From contig CALWFV010000033.1 of the NCBI GenBank assembly GCA_944377745.1, forward strand, positions 1 through 40,004: DNA of 40,004 nucleotides. The letters run 5' to 3'. Numbering within the stretch: the stretch's first letter is position 1; each line of letters opens with the position of its first letter. Below are positions 31,494 to 40,000 of the stretch, in pieces. The notes under the pieces were generated by a model that made no database searches, was not told the origin of the DNA, and saw nothing but the letters and a program-made list of their open reading frames with translations. This stretch comes from an uncultured Mediterraneibacter sp. (GTDB lineage: Bacteria; Bacillota; Clostridia; Lachnospirales; Lachnospiraceae). The position numbers were made by a program, and so were the translations under genes.

Positions 31494-34121
31494 ATGGCAA
31501 CAAAATGGGTTTATATGTTCACAGAAGGTAACGCGACAATGAGAAACCTTCTTGGTGGAAAAGGTGCGAACCTCGCTGAGATGACAGGTCTGGGACTCCC
31601 GGTACCGCAGGGATTTACTGTTACGACTGAGGCTTGTACACAGTACTATGAGGACGGCAGACAGATCAACGACGAGATCATGGGACAGATCATGGACGCT
31701 ATGACAAAGCTTGAGGAGATCACAGGAAAGAAATTCGGAGACAAAGAGAATCCGCTTCTCGTTTCCGTACGTTCCGGTGCAAGAGCTTCCATGCCTGGTA
31801 TGATGGACACAATCCTGAACCTTGGTCTGAACGAGGAAGTTGTTGAGGCCCTGGCAGAGGCGTCAGGCAATCCTCGCTGGGCTTGGGACTGCTACAGAAG
31901 ATTCATCCAGATGTATTCTGATGTGGTTATGGAAGTCGGTAAGAAATACTTTGAAGAGCTCATCGATAAGATGAAAGAAGAAAAAGGCGTTACACAGGAC
32001 GTTGAGCTGACGGCAGAGGATCTGAAGACTCTGGCAGGACAGTTCAAGGCTGAGTACAAAGAGAAGATCGGCTCAGACTTCCCGTCTGATGCGAAAGAGC
32101 AGCTGGTAGGCGCTGTTAAGGCTGTATTCCGTTCATGGGACAATCCGAGAGCTAACGTATACCGCCGTGACAACGATATCCCGTATTCATGGGGAACAGC
32201 TGTCAATGTACAGATGATGGCATTCGGTAACATGGGAGATGACTGTGGAACAGGTGTTGCCTTCACACGTGACCCGGCTACAGGAGCAAAAGGACTCTTC
32301 GGAGAGTTCCTTACAAACGCACAGGGCGAGGACGTTGTTGCCGGCGTTCGTACTCCGATGCACATTTCCGAGATGGAAGAGAAATTCCCGGAAGCTTTCA
32401 AACAGTTCAATGAAGTGTGCCATACACTGGAGACACACTACAGAGATATGCAGGATATGGAGTTTACTGTAGAGCACGGTAAACTGTACATGCTCCAGAC
32501 ACGTAACGGTAAGAGAACAGCTCAGGCTGCTCTGAAGATCGCATGCGACCTTGTTGACGAGGGCATGAGAACAGAGGAAGAAGCTGTAGCTATGATCGAT
32601 CCGCGTAACCTTGATACACTGCTTCATCCGCAGTTCGATGCTGATGCACTGAAAGCTGCTACACCGATGGGAAAAGGTCTCGGCGCTTCACCGGGGGCTG
32701 CCTGCGGTAAAGTTGTCTTCACAGCTGACGATGCTGTAGAGTGGGCAGAGAGAGGCGAGAAAGTTATCCTTGTCCGTCTTGAGACATCACCGGAAGATAT
32801 CACAGGTATGAAATCTGCTCAGGGTATCCTGACAGTTCGTGGTGGTATGACATCTCACGCAGCCGTTGTTGCACGTGGTATGGGTGAGTGCTGCGTATCC
32901 GGATGCGGCGACATCGTTATGGACGAGGCTAACAAGAAATTCACACTTGGCGGAAAAGAGTTCCACGAAGGAGATGCGATCTCTATCGACGGTACAACAG
33001 GTAACATCTACGACGGAATCATCCCGACAGTAGACGCTACGATCGCAGGTGAGTTCGGACGTATCATGGACTGGGCTGACAAGTACAGAACAATGAAGGT
33101 TCGTACAAACGCTGATACACCGGCTGACGCTAAGAAAGCAGTTGAGCTTGGCGCTGAGGGTATCGGACTCTGCCGTACAGAGCATATGTTCTTCGGCGAG
33201 GGAAGAATCGATGCATTCCGTGAGATGATCTGTGCTGAGACAGAGGAAGAGAGAGAGAAAGCTCTTGAGAAAGTCCTTCCGTATCAGCAGGGAGACTTCG
33301 AGGCTCTGTATGAGGCTCTCGAGGGCAACCCGGTAACGATCCGTTTCCTTGATCCGCCGCTTCACGAGTTCGTTCCGACAGAGGAAGAGGATATCAAGAA
33401 ACTGGCTGACGCTCAGGGCAAGACAGTTGAGCAGATCAAAGCGATCATCGATGGACTTCATGAGTTCAACCCGATGATGGGACATCGTGGATGCCGTCTG
33501 GCAGTCACATATCCGGAGATCGCTAAGATGCAGACAAGAGCTGTTATCCGTGCGGCTATCAATGTGAAGAAGGCTCATCCGGACTGGAACATCGTTCCGG
33601 AGATCATGATCCCGCTTGTTGGAGATGTGAAAGAGCTGAAATATGTTAAGAAGTTTGTTGTTGAGACAGCTGACGCTGAGATCGCAGCAGCAGGCAGCGA
33701 CCTGAAGTATGAGGTTGGTACAATGATCGAGATCCCGAGAGCTGCTCTTACAGCTGACGAGATCGCTAAAGAGGCTGACTTCTTCTGCTTCGGTACAAAC
33801 GACCTTACACAGATGACATACGGATTCTCCCGTGATGACGCTGGTAAGTTCCTCAACGCTTACTATGACGCTAAGATCTTTGAGAACGATCCGTTCGCAA
33901 AACTGGATCAGGTTGGCGTTGGCAAGCTGATGAAGATGGCAATCGAGTTAGGAAAACCGGTTAATCCGAACCTGCACGTTGGTATCTGCGGCGAGCACGG
34001 TGGAGATCCGAGCTCTGTAGAGTTCTGCAACAGCATCGGACTTGACTACGTATCCTGCTCACCGTTCCGTGTACCGGTTGCAAGACTGGCAGCGGCTCAG
34101 GCAGCTATCAATCAAAAGTGA
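31494..34121 (+). CDS. ppdK: Pyruvate, phosphate dikinase
   Basis: The 875-aa enzyme interconverts pyruvate, ATP and phosphate with phosphoenolpyruvate, AMP and pyrophosphate; in anaerobes it often works toward ATP. The ATP-grasp N-terminus is seen in LLGGKGANLAEMTGLGLPVP and VSVRSGARASMPGMMDTILN. The phosphohistidine is in GGMTSHAAVVARGMGECCVS. The PEP/pyruvate barrel has GIGLCRTEHMFF, MGHRGCRLAVTYPEI, EIMIPLVG, FGTNDLTQMTYGFSRDD and GICGEHGGDPSS. The length is normal. Codon choice (many GCT, GTT, ACA) differs from the neighbours and fits a highly expressed gene. It has its own promoter, a GAGGAGG site and a clear terminator. Confidence 0.97.
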   Translation: MATKWVYMFTEGNATMRNLLGGKGANLAEMTGLGLPVPQGFTVTTEACTQYYEDGRQINDEIMGQIMDAMTKLEEITGKKFGDKENPLLVSVRSGARASMPGMMDTILNLGLNEEVVEALAEASGNPRWAWDCYRRFIQMYSDVVMEVGKKYFEELIDKMKEEKGVTQDVELTAEDLKTLAGQFKAEYKEKIGSDFPSDAKEQLVGAVKAVFRSWDNPRANVYRRDNDIPYSWGTAVNVQMMAFGNMGDDCGTGVAFTRDPATGAKGLFGEFLTNAQGEDVVAGVRTPMHISEMEEKFPEAFKQFNEVCHTLETHYRDMQDMEFTVEHGKLYMLQTRNGKRTAQAALKIACDLVDEGMRTEEEAVAMIDPRNLDTLLHPQFDADALKAATPMGKGLGASPGAACGKVVFTADDAVEWAERGEKVILVRLETSPEDITGMKSAQGILTVRGGMTSHAAVVARGMGECCVSGCGDIVMDEANKKFTLGGKEFHEGDAISIDGTTGNIYDGIIPTVDATIAGEFGRIMDWADKYRTMKVRTNADTPADAKKAVELGAEGIGLCRTEHMFFGEGRIDAFREMICAETEEEREKALEKVLPYQQGDFEALYEALEGNPVTIRFLDPPLHEFVPTEEEDIKKLADAQGKTVEQIKAIIDGLHEFNPMMGHRGCRLAVTYPEIAKMQTRAVIRAAINVKKAHPDWNIVPEIMIPLVGDVKELKYVKKFVVETADAEIAAAGSDLKYEVGTMIEIPRAALTADEIAKEADFFCFGTNDLTQMTYGFSRDDAGKFLNAYYDAKIFENDPFAKLDQVGVGKLMKMAIELGKPVNPNLHVGICGEHGGDPSSVEFCNSIGLDYVSCSPFRVPVARLAAAQAAINQK

Positions 34122-34164
34122 GCTAACGCTGAATAGCCCCAAATAGTGTAAAAACGTAAAAAAG

Positions 34165-34204
34165 TGCCTTATCTCTGGCTTTGGCTAGGGATAGGGCATT
34201 TTTT
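34165..34204 (+). terminator. Rho-independent terminator of ppdK
   Basis: TGCCTTATCTCT (34165-34176) pairs with AGGGATAGGGCA (34187-34198), two wobbles, followed directly by six T (34199-34204). The AT-rich island starts right behind it. Confidence 0.85.
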
Positions 34205-34237
34205 GTGCCTTTTTATGTAATTCTGTACAAAAATATG

Positions 34238-34266
34238 TCGACTGGTGGGAGGTGTTTTGATATGAT
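34238..34266 (+). promoter_or_regulatory. Possible promoter of the methyltransferase-helicase operon
   Basis: TCGACT (34238-34243), 17 bases and TATGAT (34261-34266) are a fair match. A GGGAGGTG site with ATG at 34262 opens a frame of only three codons (Met-Ile-Lys-stop) before the real gene. That leaves little room for a normal leader, so the promoter might lie elsewhere. Confidence 0.35.
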
Positions 34267-34293
34267 TAAATAAAAATATATGTGAGGTGGGCT

Positions 34294-36177
34294 ATGAGTA
34301 AAGAGGTAGATGAATTTTTTTCTTATTTATCCATGATAAGTAATATCCACATTACACGTAATACACGTAAGTCTATAACTGATGAGGAGAAGGATGAGTT
34401 ATATAAGCTAAAAACGGCTAAGACGCTTGAAGAGGCTTGCAAGATTTTAGTTCCTGTTTATTTAAACTATAAAAAGAATCCTAATGAAATATCAACTGAG
34501 GATAAGAAACGCTCTGTTTCGCCACCAAAAGAATTGGTTGATAGTATATATTATGTGATATTTAATCAATGTCTTGAGATCTATAAGGCTGAAAGGCAAA
34601 TTTTTAAGAATATCTTAGAGACAGCTATGAAGACTGGTCAGTCTGTGGATGTACTTTTAAAAAATCATGCCAGAGAGACTAATACAAGAAAAATAGAAAT
34701 GCTTTCTGAAGATGCCTGTTTACGTAAGAGACAGTTTTTAGCTATTTCAAAAAAGGTGTTTAAAGCACTAGAACCCAATATAAAGAATCCAGAAAGTAAA
34801 CGAGAGAAGATGGGAATCAGACCTGAGAAAGACTTTTTCATGATGTATTTTAAGTCTGTTAACCTCTTTTCCTCTGAAAGAAAGGGAAGAACGTTTATTG
34901 GACTTATAAGAACAGTTCTTAGTTTGGTAGAATACCCTATGATAGTTGATTTGACTGGTGACGTTACAATTTTTGAAGATATTTTTTATACAAAGCATGA
35001 GTTTATTTGTTGCCGTAATATTAACGTGGCATGTTTTTATTACACGGTTGCAAATAAGTATAAAGACTTGTGCCAGGAATTGGAAGAACTCATAGGAGAG
35101 TGCGATATAGATGAATTAAAAGATTGGAAAAATGAAATATTAGAAAGAGAGAAGCAGGAAACTATAAAAGAGTTTGAAGATTTTATAGATTCAGAACTTT
35201 TAGACAAGCTGGTGGATAAAGCAGATAATACAGGCAATATACTTTTGTATCCTTTGACCGATGAAATAGAAGAAGAGATTACTTTTGCGAGTAAGTATTT
35301 ATTTCTCAGACTATACGCTAGGTATAAGATACAAATGGCGGATGATGAGAGAGAGGAAGAAACCTTAGAGAAATTCAAAGAAATGCTAGAGGAGAATAAG
35401 AGTGATTTATTTACAAAGTTAAAGTGGCTTAGTTTACGCTTGAGGAATGTTAACCTAGTCTGTGGTGGGTTAAAGAGTCTACTAGAAGAGATTACTCAAC
35501 CTAATCTCAACATGTTTTATTTGGGCGAAGACAAAGTTGTAACAAAGGGGATATTAGAAAGAAATGGCGGATTCTTTGTAAATGACGAAGATAGGGCGAA
35601 GAATGGAAAAACACGTTCATATGTATCAAAACGTATGAAGAGAGGCGTGATGTTTTATGACTACACTATAAGGAGTGATAAGAAAGAACTTATAAAATTT
35701 GCGGATTTTATAAATAGTAAGAGTTGTTGGTGGATTCTTATTGCTAAGAAGAGTGATGTTTTTGTAAGAGGGGTCGTTGAGGATAAAGGCAGGTATAGTG
35801 TATGCCTAAACATACCTGATGAGATGGAATACTTTTTGGATGCTTCAGTTTTATCAAAAGAAATTAATTCTAAGGATTTGATTCTGTATACTAACATAGA
35901 TGTGACCAGGAGATATTTATATAATCCTGATATAGAAAACTCAGAATTGTTTTATTTTCTCAATGCAGTATACTATGCCGACAAGAAGCGTGATACAGCA
36001 CACGATGCCGACAAGAAGCGTGATACAGCACACGATGCCGACAAGAAGCGTGATACAGCACACGATACCGACAAGAAGCGTGATACAGCACGTGATGCCG
36101 ACAAGAAGCCTGATTATGAAAAAATTGTAATTCAAAAGTTATGGGATGAAAACAGAAAAGGATATATGTTTATTTAG
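34294..36177 (+). CDS. Inactive D12-methyltransferase-like partner protein with decapeptide repeat
   Basis: The 627-aa protein matches no family at first sight. Set beside the methyltransferase half of the next gene, its parts fall in the same order: a GRTFIGLIRTVLS helix, then IVDLTGDVTIFEDI (217-230) where the partner has FFDVFGGTGIVT, RNINVACFYY where it has NEFDVEVANFF, FASKYLFLRLYARYK against AAFYFYYINSFASR, WLSLRLRNVNLV against WISEFHKRVKGVKV, MFYLGEDKVVTKG (407-419) against IYYLDPPYFLTKQ, and INSKSCWWILIAKKS against RTTKCKWILSCKS. The SAM-binding FGGTG and catalytic DPPY are both lost, so it should not methylate. About 180 unmatched residues precede this. Residues 562-606 hold a charged 10-residue repeat. 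ATG 34294 follows GAGGTGG; a GTG at 34282 overlaps that site. The next gene starts two bases after the stop. Confidence 0.6.
   Translation: MSKEVDEFFSYLSMISNIHITRNTRKSITDEEKDELYKLKTAKTLEEACKILVPVYLNYKKNPNEISTEDKKRSVSPPKELVDSIYYVIFNQCLEIYKAERQIFKNILETAMKTGQSVDVLLKNHARETNTRKIEMLSEDACLRKRQFLAISKKVFKALEPNIKNPESKREKMGIRPEKDFFMMYFKSVNLFSSERKGRTFIGLIRTVLSLVEYPMIVDLTGDVTIFEDIFYTKHEFICCRNINVACFYYTVANKYKDLCQELEELIGECDIDELKDWKNEILEREKQETIKEFEDFIDSELLDKLVDKADNTGNILLYPLTDEIEEEITFASKYLFLRLYARYKIQMADDEREEETLEKFKEMLEENKSDLFTKLKWLSLRLRNVNLVCGGLKSLLEEITQPNLNMFYLGEDKVVTKGILERNGGFFVNDEDRAKNGKTRSYVSKRMKRGVMFYDYTIRSDKKELIKFADFINSKSCWWILIAKKSDVFVRGVVEDKGRYSVCLNIPDEMEYFLDASVLSKEINSKDLILYTNIDVTRRYLYNPDIENSELFYFLNAVYYADKKRDTAHDADKKRDTAHDADKKRDTAHDTDKKRDTARDADKKPDYEKIVIQKLWDENRKGYMFI
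35977..36114 (+). repeat. 30-bp in-frame tandem repeat, 4.6 copies
   Basis: Units start at 35977, 36007, 36037, 36067 and 36097. The first three are identical, the fourth differs by three bases, and the last is partial. Each encodes Ala/Thr-Asp-Lys-Lys-Arg-Asp-Thr-Ala-His/Arg-Asp. The unit has a richer G+C content than the gene around it. Because 30 is a multiple of three, copy-number change alters linker length without breaking the frame. Confidence 0.95.
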
Positions 36178-36179
36178 CT

Positions 36180-39100
36180 ATGGAGAAATTTAATATACTT
36201 GTAAAGAATGGAAAAGAGTCAGAGATGTACTATTATCAGGATGAGGCGATTAAGGCATTAGAATTGCTAGATAAAAAATATCCTGAATTTTATAGAACCT
36301 TGATTGTCATACCAACTGGAGGCGGTAAGACAAGGACAGCTATAAAGTATGTATACAAAAATGTTTTAAATAAAAAAGGTGGCAAGGTTCTATGGATTTG
36401 CGAAAGACTTCTTTTGCAAGAACAGTCATATAACAGTTTCAGAAACATGGCTATTAATGCTAATCTTAGAAACCGTAATGTATCAAAAATAATTGCCGGA
36501 GTATATTCTGGTGAAGCAGGGGATTTTACAAAAGATAATCTGAAAGATGCTGAGTTAGTATTTGTTACGCAGCAGACGCTCAATATAAGTTTGAGTGGTA
36601 ATAGTTCAAAGGCAAATCCGTTAAATGATTGGATTTCTTTCGAGGATTCTTTAACAGTTATTATTGATGAGGCACACCATGCAACATCTAAAAACTATAA
36701 AAATATATTGAGAGCCTTAGAAGATTTAAAAGAATCTAAAAACATAAGACTTCATATCATAGGCTTAACGGCAACACCAAAGTTAAAAGAGACCAGACAA
36801 GCAACGGATATTGAAAGAATATTTACTCATGGTGTTGAGAACAATATTGCAAGCACAAATACATGTTACGCATGTAGAGTATCCATACACGAGTTAGTGG
36901 CTAATGGTTTCTTGTCAAAGCCTTATCTGGTGAGAATTGATGATAGCTATGAGGGAGAGTCCAATAAGCGTATGAATGAGGTAATTGTTTCCGCATACCT
37001 ATCAAAGCTAAAAGGTAAGCCGGTGGAATGTGGTGACATTTTAGCGGGAAGAGAAGACTCTCTCCCTACGGACGAGTTAGGGAAAACTGTGATTTTTGTA
37101 AATAGTCGTGTTCAGGCAGTCCTTTTAAAGAATGAGTTTGAAGCTGTTGGTTTAAAGGAAAAATGCGGATTAGCTATTTCTGTTGATAAATCACTTTGGC
37201 AACAGAAGGAATTACAAGGTATTATACCGATTGCCGACAAAGATGTAAGTAAGGATATTGAAGATTTTAAGCATGGTACTAAGACGATACTTATCAGCGT
37301 GGATATGTTGCTTGAAGGTATCGATATTCCTACGATTCAAACTGTCTTTCTGGCAAGAAAAACGGAAAATTCAAAGCTCATTACTCAAATGGTTGGACGG
37401 GGACTGAGAGGTTTAAAAGTAGACGGAACAGAAGTAGCCTACGTGGTGGATTTTGGTAATAATAAGCTAGATAAAATATTGTGGGAAACACCTGATGCGT
37501 CTAAAAATAACGTTTTTGACCCGATAAGGGGATATAAGATTATAGCAACTGACTTCGGAGGACTTAGTGGTGGCGGAGGCAGAGGAAAGCTGTCAGATGA
37601 CGAAAAATTTGGTATGTTGAAAGATGCCATGATGCAACCATATTTTCTGAAAGATGACAAAACTATGGAAAGATGGTTGCAAGAGAAAGGTATGGAAAAC
37701 TTTATGGAGGTAGGACAAATACCTTATGGATACTTCCATTTTGACGGGAGGTATCTTTTGGCATGGTATCGTACAAAGGATTGGATTGAGGATATTTATA
37801 ATGCTATCAGCACAAATCATATACCCTATAAGAGATTAAAAGAATCATTGGAGTCTTTTTTGGTTTTTAGGCGTAAGAGGAGAAGTGTATTAAAAAATTT
37901 TGATGGGTTAGAAGAACGATATAATACTATAAAGAAGAATGACAAAGAACTAATAGAAATCTTTCTCCGATATGTTTATTATACGCTTTATAACATATGC
38001 ATAGTCAACAAGAAAGTGATTCCTTCTGAGTTCAAATTTACTCAATTTCAGACGAATATTAACGATAATATGAAGAATGTGTTAATTGGTGCAGTTGATT
38101 GTGATGAATCAAAATTAGAAGATTATCTTGATAAGGAGTGGAAAAAATATCCAGATCAAAATTTTTGGAAAAAAGACGAATTTAAACGTTATGTGAGGAA
38201 ACAAATTGAGGAGTATAAAAACATACCAGAACTTTCGGAGAGTGGTTTTCAAATAGTAAGAATTTACAGGAATGGCAAAAAACGTCAAAATCTTATTGAT
38301 ATGGTGAGAACTATATCGCAAGAGTATATTTTGACTCAAAAGAATCCTGAGGAGATTGGCTTTTTTGATGTCTTTGGCGGTACAGGTATTGTGACTGCAA
38401 ATATGTCTGATGTTATTGCAGGTAAAAGATATTATAATGAGTTTGACGTTGAAGTGGCTAATTTCTTTGATTGCTTAAATAGATTTGAGCATATAGGGAG
38501 CGACTTTACAAAATATTTAGCGAAGATGGAAAGTGACTTGTCGATGCAAGTCATAAGTGCTCAAATGGAACTCGAAAAGGATTTGGAGGTGATGAAAAAT
38601 TTTGAGTTGTCCACTACTACTGATTATCGCAAAGAGGCAGAAGAATACCTAGATAAGAAAAAAGACAAGCTCAGTGAAACCTCTGAGTTTTTGAAACTTT
38701 TAATAAGACTCTTGAAAGACAAGGATGTTGAAGAATATGTAAAACTTTATATTGCATATTATCGTCAGTTTAAAGAAAATTTAGAGAAAATCAAAGAAAA
38801 AGGAGAAACAACATGGAAGAGTATTTATCACGAAAGGTTTGAGGCAGAATTTAATAACAGAGCAAGACCGAAAGGGGATAGTGAGTGCATAAACGAAATG
38901 AAGACTGCAGCCTTTTACTTTTACTATATCAATAGTTTTGCCAGTAGAGCGGTATCAAATAGTGATATCACGGGGGTAGACCCATATGGTATTGCTCAGC
39001 TTAAGAAAAGTATTTCAGAGTATGGTGTAAATTGGATATCTGAGTTTCATAAGCGGGTAAAAGGTGTAAAGGTTTTCTCCGAAGATTTTGCAAAAATACT

Positions 39101-39656
39101 TAATGAAACAAATAAGTTAAATACGATATACTATTTAGACCCACCCTACTTTTTGACCAAGCAATATGCTGAAGGGTTTCCTGACGAGTTTCATCTTAAA
39201 ATGCTAGAGTGGTTTCGTACTACTAAATGTAAATGGATTTTATCCTGTAAGTCATGCCCAACCAATACGCAGACATGGTTAGAAAAAAGGAAAGGTGAGA
39301 ACAATGTGCTTATTGAGTATACAGATAATAAAGAAGGCAATTATTATGAAAATCGAGATTGGCTAAACCATGATAAAGGTAATTTATCCATGAAAGAATA
39401 TTTTCGCCTATTTATTTATGAGGAGATGAAGCCTGAAACTAAAGATAGTATAAAATTTTACAAGGCAGATGTTAAATCAGCTAGAAGTAACAAAGAAAGA
39501 TTATTTGTGTATCACGGGCAGAATGCGGTTGAGGAACACTTTGAAATTATAATAAGTAACATCAAAGTTCCAGATGAGCACCAGTACATATTGGAGAACA
39601 GCGGTATTATAATGGAGCCGTTTGAGGTGTTCTTCAGACCGTTACTCAAAGATTAA
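36180..39656 (+). CDS. SF2 helicase fused to a D12-class adenine methyltransferase
   Basis: The 1158-aa protein has an N-terminal superfamily 2 helicase like those of type I/III restriction enzymes: Walker A IPTGGGKT (44-51), Walker B/DEAH IIDEAHHATS (161-170), GLTATPKLK (195-203), VIFVNSR (304-310), ISVDMLLEGIDIPTIQ (372-387) and QMVGRGLRG (403-411). After a middle region (~470-690) comes an N6-adenine methyltransferase of the alpha-type D12 class: motif I FFDVFGGTGIVT (728-739) and motif IV IYYLDPPYF (983-991), with about 250 residues between them, partly coiled coil (~790-875), that would hold the target-recognition part. It should translocate or remodel DNA and methylate adenine. No nuclease motif is seen. 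ATG 36180 is two bases after the partner gene with only a weak site, so translation is probably coupled. Confidence 0.85.
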   Translation: MEKFNILVKNGKESEMYYYQDEAIKALELLDKKYPEFYRTLIVIPTGGGKTRTAIKYVYKNVLNKKGGKVLWICERLLLQEQSYNSFRNMAINANLRNRNVSKIIAGVYSGEAGDFTKDNLKDAELVFVTQQTLNISLSGNSSKANPLNDWISFEDSLTVIIDEAHHATSKNYKNILRALEDLKESKNIRLHIIGLTATPKLKETRQATDIERIFTHGVENNIASTNTCYACRVSIHELVANGFLSKPYLVRIDDSYEGESNKRMNEVIVSAYLSKLKGKPVECGDILAGREDSLPTDELGKTVIFVNSRVQAVLLKNEFEAVGLKEKCGLAISVDKSLWQQKELQGIIPIADKDVSKDIEDFKHGTKTILISVDMLLEGIDIPTIQTVFLARKTENSKLITQMVGRGLRGLKVDGTEVAYVVDFGNNKLDKILWETPDASKNNVFDPIRGYKIIATDFGGLSGGGGRGKLSDDEKFGMLKDAMMQPYFLKDDKTMERWLQEKGMENFMEVGQIPYGYFHFDGRYLLAWYRTKDWIEDIYNAISTNHIPYKRLKESLESFLVFRRKRRSVLKNFDGLEERYNTIKKNDKELIEIFLRYVYYTLYNICIVNKKVIPSEFKFTQFQTNINDNMKNVLIGAVDCDESKLEDYLDKEWKKYPDQNFWKKDEFKRYVRKQIEEYKNIPELSESGFQIVRIYRNGKKRQNLIDMVRTISQEYILTQKNPEEIGFFDVFGGTGIVTANMSDVIAGKRYYNEFDVEVANFFDCLNRFEHIGSDFTKYLAKMESDLSMQVISAQMELEKDLEVMKNFELSTTTDYRKEAEEYLDKKKDKLSETSEFLKLLIRLLKDKDVEEYVKLYIAYYRQFKENLEKIKEKGETTWKSIYHERFEAEFNNRARPKGDSECINEMKTAAFYFYYINSFASRAVSNSDITGVDPYGIAQLKKSISEYGVNWISEFHKRVKGVKVFSEDFAKILNETNKLNTIYYLDPPYFLTKQYAEGFPDEFHLKMLEWFRTTKCKWILSCKSCPTNTQTWLEKRKGENNVLIEYTDNKEGNYYENRDWLNHDKGNLSMKEYFRLFIYEEMKPETKDSIKFYKADVKSARSNKERLFVYHGQNAVEEHFEIIISNIKVPDEHQYILENSGIIMEPFEVFFRPLLKD

Positions 39657-39693: not shown

Positions 39694-39906
39694 TCAATCA
39701 TTGTCACTTGGTATAATTTCAAACAGATCGTTTGGAGTACATTCGAGAATGACACACAACTTTTCGATATTCTCAAAACGGATAGAGGAGGTTTCATCTT
39801 TCATCATATGGCTTAGGTTGTGGTAGTCGATATTCATCTGGTTGTGAAGCCAGTATTTGGTACGACCTTTTTCTTCAAGCAGTTCTTTAATGCGTAAATG
39901 AATCAA
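39694..39906 (-). CDS. Small XRE-family transcriptional regulator
   Basis: The 70-aa protein is a single Cro/C1-type helix-turn-helix domain: IRIKELLEEKGRTKYWLHNQ-like start, then MNIDYHNLSHMMKDETSSIR as the recognition region, and FENIEKLCVILECTPNDLFE at the end. This is the short, domain-only form seen as controllers in restriction-modification and toxin-antitoxin loci. AAGGAGG (39915-39921 on the other strand) precedes its ATG at 39906. It converges on the helicase-methyltransferase operon and has an inverted repeat in its upstream region, so it may repress itself and perhaps genes beyond the window edge. It does not lie upstream of the operon, so control of that operon is only a guess. 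Confidence 0.85.
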   Translation of the reverse strand: MIHLRIKELLEEKGRTKYWLHNQMNIDYHNLSHMMKDETSSIRFENIEKLCVILECTPNDLFEIIPSDND

Positions 39907-39928: not shown

Positions 39929-40000
39929 TATAGTGTCTACACATACAATCCCATAATACATGAAACTGAGGCTTTACTTAACTGGTCTACAGACACTATA
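39929..40000. repeat. Hyphenated inverted repeat upstream of the XRE gene
   Basis: TATAGTGTCT (39929-39938) and its exact complement AGACACTATA (39991-40000) are 52 bases apart. A second, inner pair CCTCAGT / ACTGAGG overlaps it (39922-39928 and 39965-39971). On the minus strand a promoter fits between them (TTAAGT, 17 bases, TATTAT). The arms could be two operator half-sites, or the ends of a mobile unit. Confidence 0.55.

Follow-up and report, generated by a model that had tools for sequence, protein, structure and literature searches.

The gene pair and its products

The stretch of DNA analysed here (the window) comprises 40,004 nucleotides from an uncultured Mediterraneibacter sp. of the Lachnospiraceae, is the entire contig CALWFV010000033.1 (assembly GCA_944377745.1), and carries near its right end two adjacent genes, here called A and B, whose products are the subject of this report. 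In the list of open reading frames (ORFs), gene A occupies 34294-36177 (627 aa) and gene B 36180-39656 (1158 aa); both lie on the + strand and 2 bases separate them. For gene A the ATG at 34294 is preferred over a GTG at 34282, and the ORF of its lone relative (see below) opens with the same ATG. A and B are genuine genes, with the coordinates and proteins that a first-pass annotation, made from the sequence alone, had claimed for them, and the peptides it had quoted were located both in A (LIRTVLS at residue 204, IVDLTGDVT at 217, WLSLRLRN at 378, MFYLGEDK at 407 and INSKSCWWILIAKKS at 473) and in B (FFDVFGGTG at 728, WISEFHK at 952, YYLDPPY at 984 and KWILSCK at 1018).

Judged from its sequence, protein B clearly joins a superfamily 2 (SF2; ResIII-type) helicase to an adenine methyltransferase of the D12 class whose motifs are intact, as had been proposed. 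The helicase (B8-448, 36201..37523, +) matches Pfam ResIII (3.6e-25) and Helicase_C (2.7e-9) as well as phrog_16 (B11-448, 8.2e-47), and has Walker A (PTGGGKT) at residue 45, DEAH at 163 and motif VI (QMVGRGLRG) at 403. The methyltransferase half (B688-1158, 38241..39653, +), recognized by phmmer and alignment and bearing a long insertion after the YNE helix, finds stand-alone D12 proteins of the order (best E 1.7e-16), and PF02086 was found in all five scanned relatives of this half, while B itself does not match that Pfam model at E up to 10. Motif I (FFDVFGGTG, B728-736, 38361..38387), YNE and motif IV (DPPY, B987-990, 39138..39149) are all kept, in D12 order, in a column comparison with 66 D12 proteins, every one of which has DPPY. 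PADLOC models match the helicase and the D12 part separately, PD-Lambda-5_B covering the D12 core (B951-1052, 2.2e-7). No nuclease family was detected in A or B with Pfam at E up to 1, a search in which a divergent nuclease could be missed, as B's methyltransferase is.

No second helicase–D12 fusion was found in the 295 order, 398 phylum and 299 family genomes searched. The methyltransferase half has matches in 45 of the order genomes, where the listed open frames outside the window's own genome measure at most 464 aa, and among the phylum genomes the window's own alone passes 1e-12; full-length B had matches at 1e-30 in six family genomes, and in five of these only the helicase part was covered. 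One open frame of 1251 aa (genome G336), considered as a second fusion of this type, proved to be a helicase with other ends. In plasmids and phages B found matches to its helicase part only, among the matches listed (best 10 of 42 records in one search), and the methyltransferase half gave partial methyltransferase matches in 3 and 6 records. In viral contigs a DNA pattern for FDVFGGTG hit a single unrelated locus and one for DPPYFLTKQ none.

Protein A consists of an N-terminal region, a probable, catalytically dead D12-like domain at about residues 185-540, and a repeat tail. Five D12 scaffold blocks can be placed along it in order, with negative scores at the motif I and DPPY positions. The segment chain pairs A186-208 (34849..34917) with the motif X region of B (B690-712), at a D12 block score of -3.2. 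The putative degenerate motif I, IVDLTGDVT (A217-225, 34942..34968; block placed at A213, score -0.4 to -3.3), is followed by a candidate counterpart of the D12 EVYND helix at A235-254 (34996..35055), in which YND is not kept; this scores 8.8 without B in the profile, 9.7 with 30% B and 6.7 with 60% B, and is the second-best local hhalign match. A weak counterpart of the DIQRAARFF block may lie at A325-346 (35266..35331; -0.4 to 0.0). The block RL..V.IEN..F..LI..YD...FY appears to correspond to A375-408 (35416..35517; 10.3 without B, 9.3 with 30% B, 5.0 with 60% B), and the top local hhalign match is A371-413. Extending this block across MFYLGEDKVVTKG (A407-419, 35512..35550), which stands at the DPPY position, takes the score from 10.3 to -3.2 without B and from 9.3 to -4.1 with 30% B; catalytic motif IV is absent. 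Further on come likely counterparts of the H..L...L....KGKWILS block (A462-491, 35677..35766; 9.4 with 30% B, 2.6 without B) and, possibly, of the last D12 strand, ELIIxN (KDLILYTNI, A527-535, 35872..35898; 4.4 with B), for which a profile without B chooses another position, A532 (2.2). The tail holds a charged 10-residue repeat, ADKKRDTAHD, in four copies plus a partial fifth (35977..36108), possibly a site of length variation. All these features lie on the + strand. No DPPY-like motif was found in A, the search pattern recovering SPPK at residue 76 alone, and its motif I region retains one glycine and scores negative, with no glycine-rich motif I. The annotation's observation that the catalytic motifs are replaced while their surroundings persist is partly borne out by these scores.

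Relationship of A to the D12 methyltransferases

Is A, as had been claimed, a relative of B's methyltransferase half over most of its length? The similarity in sequence appears to exceed chance and is not decisive. We consider it probable that a degenerate D12 domain is present in A; its being a dead relative of this half of B is plausible, at the limit of what can be detected. Our D12 profile combined 26 order-level proteins with 40 viral proteins, the latter retained after clustering of 75 usable sequences (80 loci, 77 ORFs). The background comprised 213 proteins from genomes G072 and G117, one of them a mostly masked sequence that scored highest in the alignment test of A161-560; it was left out from the segment-chain test onwards (212 used), and still stood in the background of the first catalytic-block test. 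In gapped alignment with B's methyltransferase half, A161-560 reached z 4.2-5.1, the top value among the 212 usable background proteins. When the scaffold blocks N, F, D, K and E were placed under spacing limits with 30% B in the profile, none of the 212 background proteins and 0, 0 and 4 of 500 shuffles scored at or above A; without B the figures were 1 of 212 and 3, 9 and 28 of 500. Scaffold blocks without spacing limits were weakly positive (3 to 167 of 1000 shuffles at or above A). Catalytic blocks under spacing limits were equalled by 2, 2 and 12 of 300 shuffles and no background protein with 30% B, and by 28, 33 and 42 of 300 shuffles and 2 of 212 proteins without B. A profile search, which the annotation had proposed, gave hhalign local matches of A that lie in register, but at an overall level that is not significant (E 0.08; 0.10 without B) and that was reached by 3 of 80 background proteins drawn from the 212 (5 of 80 without B).

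That level is one of a number of results that weigh against the kinship. BLASTP between A and B gave a best E of 1.1, hhalign of the single sequences P 0.37, and hmmsearch with the D12 profile 2.2 bits, equalled by 14 of 282 shuffles (scores being available for 116 of the 212 background proteins and 282 of 300 shuffles); searches of A against Pfam, NCBIfam, PADLOC and PHROGs returned nothing relevant. In the segment-chain test A180-560 scored z 2.4-3.7, and the best of 290 background windows 4.05-5.35. Ordered blocks that include the catalytic motifs, placed without spacing limits, were not significant (p 0.04 to 0.59), and in the same type of test 39-244 of 1000 shuffles scored at or above A. 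Once B is removed from the profile, one background protein beats A on the scaffold blocks, and the spacing windows of the block test were chosen after A had been inspected. Five MAFFT alignments gave differing registers: the alignment labelled A8 alone sets MFYLGEDK on IYYLDPPY and SCWWIL on KCKWIL, and it misplaces motif I; those labelled A5 and A6 shift KWIL and DPPY, and A7 and A9 the DPPY block. Identity between A and B in forced alignments is 17-26%, a divergence too large for the duplication of an enzyme, envisaged by the annotation, to be recent.

Structure prediction divides in the same way. Given an alignment with D12 rows, AlphaFold2 builds A as a Dam-like fold, with high confidence over two stretches, but this is a biased test: the rows steer the model, and the input, alignment A8 (33 of the 40 viral D12 proteins plus segments of A and B), was the most favourable of the five, and for it A had been truncated at residue 500. 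Foldseek of this model returned no match at E <= 0.001, the best being Mcbe1 (1.1e-3), with DpnM at 4.2e-3. Without D12 rows the model of A is mostly helical, at a predicted confidence (pLDDT) of 35, and was discarded as evidence. The absence of a Rossmann methyltransferase fold from A, which the annotation had named as the finding that would overturn its claim, did not emerge, and neither did a clean confirmation of that fold.

It is possible, though we hold it the lesser probability, that A is no methyltransferase relative at all, and instead a fast-evolving, mostly helical adaptor, effector or regulator of B whose likeness to D12 proteins arises by chance from its charged, helix-rich composition. 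The silent standard searches, the catalytic blocks that fail without spacing limits, a segment-chain score within the background range, unstable registers and the helical unbiased model would all fit such a protein. Harder to reconcile with it are the ordered scaffold blocks, on which A beats 212 of 212 (or 211 of 212) background proteins, the in-register local matches and the confident stretches of the Dam-like model, biased as that is; and since B itself misses the Pfam D12 model, Pfam silence on A says little.

Whatever its ancestry, A is a maintained protein under purifying selection, as a comparison of its two copies indicates. The sole relative, from family genome G181 (contig C19, locus L012), shares 85% identity with A across its first 264 residues and is then truncated by the contig edge. 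A Nei-Gojobori type count gives synonymous divergence (dS) 0.26, non-synonymous divergence (dN) 0.07 and a ratio of 0.27, falling to 0.15 over codons 181-264, which span the motif I region; the altered motif, IVDLTGDVT, is identical in both copies. The low dN/dS and the unchanged motif show that A is maintained, and a decaying pseudogene is ruled out by the ratios of 0.15-0.27. We regard as very improbable the view that A is either a decaying, functionless enzyme, which those ratios contradict, or a D12-like domain still working otherwise, through binding of S-adenosylmethionine (SAM) or modification of something other than adenine; Rossmann methyltransferases do vary widely outside the amino-methyltransferases, but A has no DPPY-like motif and a single glycine in motif I. 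The truncation of this copy and the failure to find B in the G181 genome count against the two-subunit complex proposed below; as the contig there breaks inside A, the missing B says little.

Genomic setting and helicase relatives

A and B form a rare, low-GC accessory insert behind a gene at 31494..34121 (+) that we take to be ppdK, for pyruvate phosphate dikinase, the final gene of the genus backbone ahead of the insert. A query spanning its end (33600-34230) has matches in 47 of 58 genus genomes, the window's own included, and the listed matches in other genomes all end at or before window position 34119 (query 520), at the ppdK stop codon; the assignment as an insert stands on this, on the scarcity of gene A and on the GC content. 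Counting the window's own genome, A occurs in 1 of 58 genus, 2 of 299 family and 1 of 398 phylum genomes. A further family match (G113, 30% over ~100 residues) lies within a flagellar operon and was removed as a chance hit. The GC content is ~51% just upstream and drops to 34-37% from ~34 kb on. DNA common to the two copies of A begins near 34219 and includes the leader of gene A (34219..34293, +) as its left part, whereas the left neighbours differ, that of the second copy being presumably a prfA-like gene; the A unit has therefore moved. No match was found for the insert in plasmids by blastn or for A in plasmids and phages by tblastn, and none was confirmed in viral contigs for A or B's methyltransferase half. 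A scan of genome contigs for A and its relative used two peptide patterns, suited to close relatives only, and recovered the known copy. Downstream, B is followed on the opposite strand by an ORF of 70 aa (39694..39906, -) resembling, by eye, a helix-turn-helix regulator of the Cro/C1 type. The contig ends 348 bases past B; at its extreme end (39931-39998) lies an inverted repeat, TAGTGTCT / AGACACTA, each arm occurring once in the window, which may mark a repeated or mobile element at which the assembly broke off.

The helicases closest to B are helicase-HNH proteins from the family (L005-L008; 31-36% identity), the HNH ends being recognized by Pfam in the two scanned and by eye in the other two. 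No A-like gene was found near helicase-HNH proteins with phmmer in five regions. ResIII helicase-HNH genes lie at L145:6150-9130, L146:7672-10480, L147:7028-9837, L148:8431-11222 and L165:4310-6407, the last split into two ORFs, and a small partner gene (~150-235 aa) lies directly downstream of such genes; at E 0.01 Pfam assigns no family to the partners in L145, L147 and L148. Upstream of the L145 helicase-HNH gene are genes for GmrSD, two genes away, and PglZ, three genes away. Helicase-HNH plus small partner is a possible two-gene defence candidate. The same helicase type also occurs at L164:5970-9716 (1249 aa), with a repeat-rich N-terminal region and, by eye, HNH-like and DnaQ-like exonuclease ends, and at L149:7885-10494, where inspection by eye suggests a metallopeptidase-like stretch (HELLH) and Pfam identifies a zinc ribbon at the C terminus. 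The helicase family seems to swap its effector ends.

Proposed working and comparison with known systems

We tentatively propose, at somewhat less than an even chance, that A and B form a two-subunit, ATP-driven DNA-modification complex, B supplying motor and active site and A a related, non-catalytic subunit. The SF2 helicase of B would be the motor and its D12 adenine methyltransferase the active site; A would have the related fold, with SAM-binding and catalytic motifs lost, and might serve in DNA binding or positioning and in keeping the methyltransferase of B in its active conformation, by analogy with ModA for ModB and MTA9 for MTA1. Through the helicase, recognition of a site would be linked to travel along DNA. 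Given that a nuclease was not found, invading DNA may be affected through modification or blocking, or through a gene beyond the contig end. Both complex formation and this division of labour are inferred by analogy. That A is kept as a subunit, as the annotation suggested, agrees with the purifying selection on it; a defence role for the pair is suggested solely by the company of helicase relatives (GmrSD and PglZ, in one case).

An unlikely alternative makes A and B part of a larger restriction-modification (RM) system of Type I-like design, with A a specificity-type subunit and a nuclease or specificity gene past the contig end. The contig does stop 348 bases after B, helicase relatives bear HNH domains, with PglZ and GmrSD genes close to one of them; yet A matches no specificity-subunit family in Pfam, and the A–B transcript probably ends after B, given the opposite-strand ORF that follows. 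To return to the two-subunit modification complex, its fullest form, which we think rather doubtful, would be a bacterial helicase-driven adenine methyltransferase whose active subunit is fused to the motor and served by a dedicated dead D12 recognition subunit, an independent counterpart of METTL3/METTL14 and a nuclease-free machine of Type III/ISP-like character. If confirmed, the pair would add an unusual machine for DNA marking or phage defence in bacteria; a natural motor–methyltransferase in which recognition and catalysis are divided would permit direct tests of their coupling and, if defensive, of how a system with no evident nuclease protects its cell.

Eukaryotes offer well-described cases of a methyltransferase with a dead partner, METTL3–METTL14 combining an active and an inactive subunit of methyltransferase fold; we know of no bacterial D12 methyltransferase with such a partner. 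D12 enzymes such as Dam, DpnM and T4 Dam (PF02086) resemble B's methyltransferase half, and A through its scaffold blocks and the biased model only; B differs in its long insertion after the YNE helix and the helicase in front, and A in lacking the catalytic motifs. In the ciliate N6-methyladenine (6mA) complex MTA1–MTA9, a partner without catalytic function can have lost its SAM and catalytic residues and yet retain a structural part (PMC9174199). This pair and METTL3–METTL14 belong to the eukaryotic MT-A70 family, have DPPW and carry no fused helicase, whereas B has DPPY, A has neither motif, and Pfam, through which they were compared, gives no MT-A70 match for A or B. Among the matches listed, titles and abstract openings of the open-licence literature yielded no bacterial helicase and methyltransferase with an inactive partner. 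Degenerate, inactive domains are described as common in defence proteins in passages from a study of BREX diversity, which name no dead methyltransferase partner (PMC12839542). PD-lambda-5, summarized as a compacted RM and abortive infection (Abi) system (PMC9519451), is like B in the methyltransferase core only, and PADLOC gives no match for A; the helicase-HNH proteins L005-L008 differ from B in their HNH end and small partner gene.

The Type III and Type ISP enzymes offer functional parallels. In EcoP15I (Mod2Res1), ModA makes most base contacts and ModB methylates, with an SF2 helicase as motor (PMC4490356). A and B likewise join an SF2 helicase of the Res type (ResIII 3.6e-25 in B) with an adenine methyltransferase. 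The Mods of EcoP15I, however, are two copies of one beta-class protein, separate from a Res that has a nuclease domain, whereas in the present pair one chain holds both helicase and D12 methyltransferase, the second subunit, a degenerate and different protein, has a gene of its own, and a nuclease was not found. In the Type ISP enzymes LlaGI and LlaBIII, helicase, coupler and methyltransferase follow one another in a single chain (PMC4666363), and B has helicase then methyltransferase in one chain too. They begin with an Mrr nuclease and end with a recognition domain, whereas B starts with its helicase, whose matches begin at residue 11-20 and leave no room for an Mrr nuclease, and its methyltransferase is of D12 type. 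Given the fused D12 domain with an unlike second subunit and the lack of room for an N-terminal nuclease, A and B miss defining features of both types and at most work like them.

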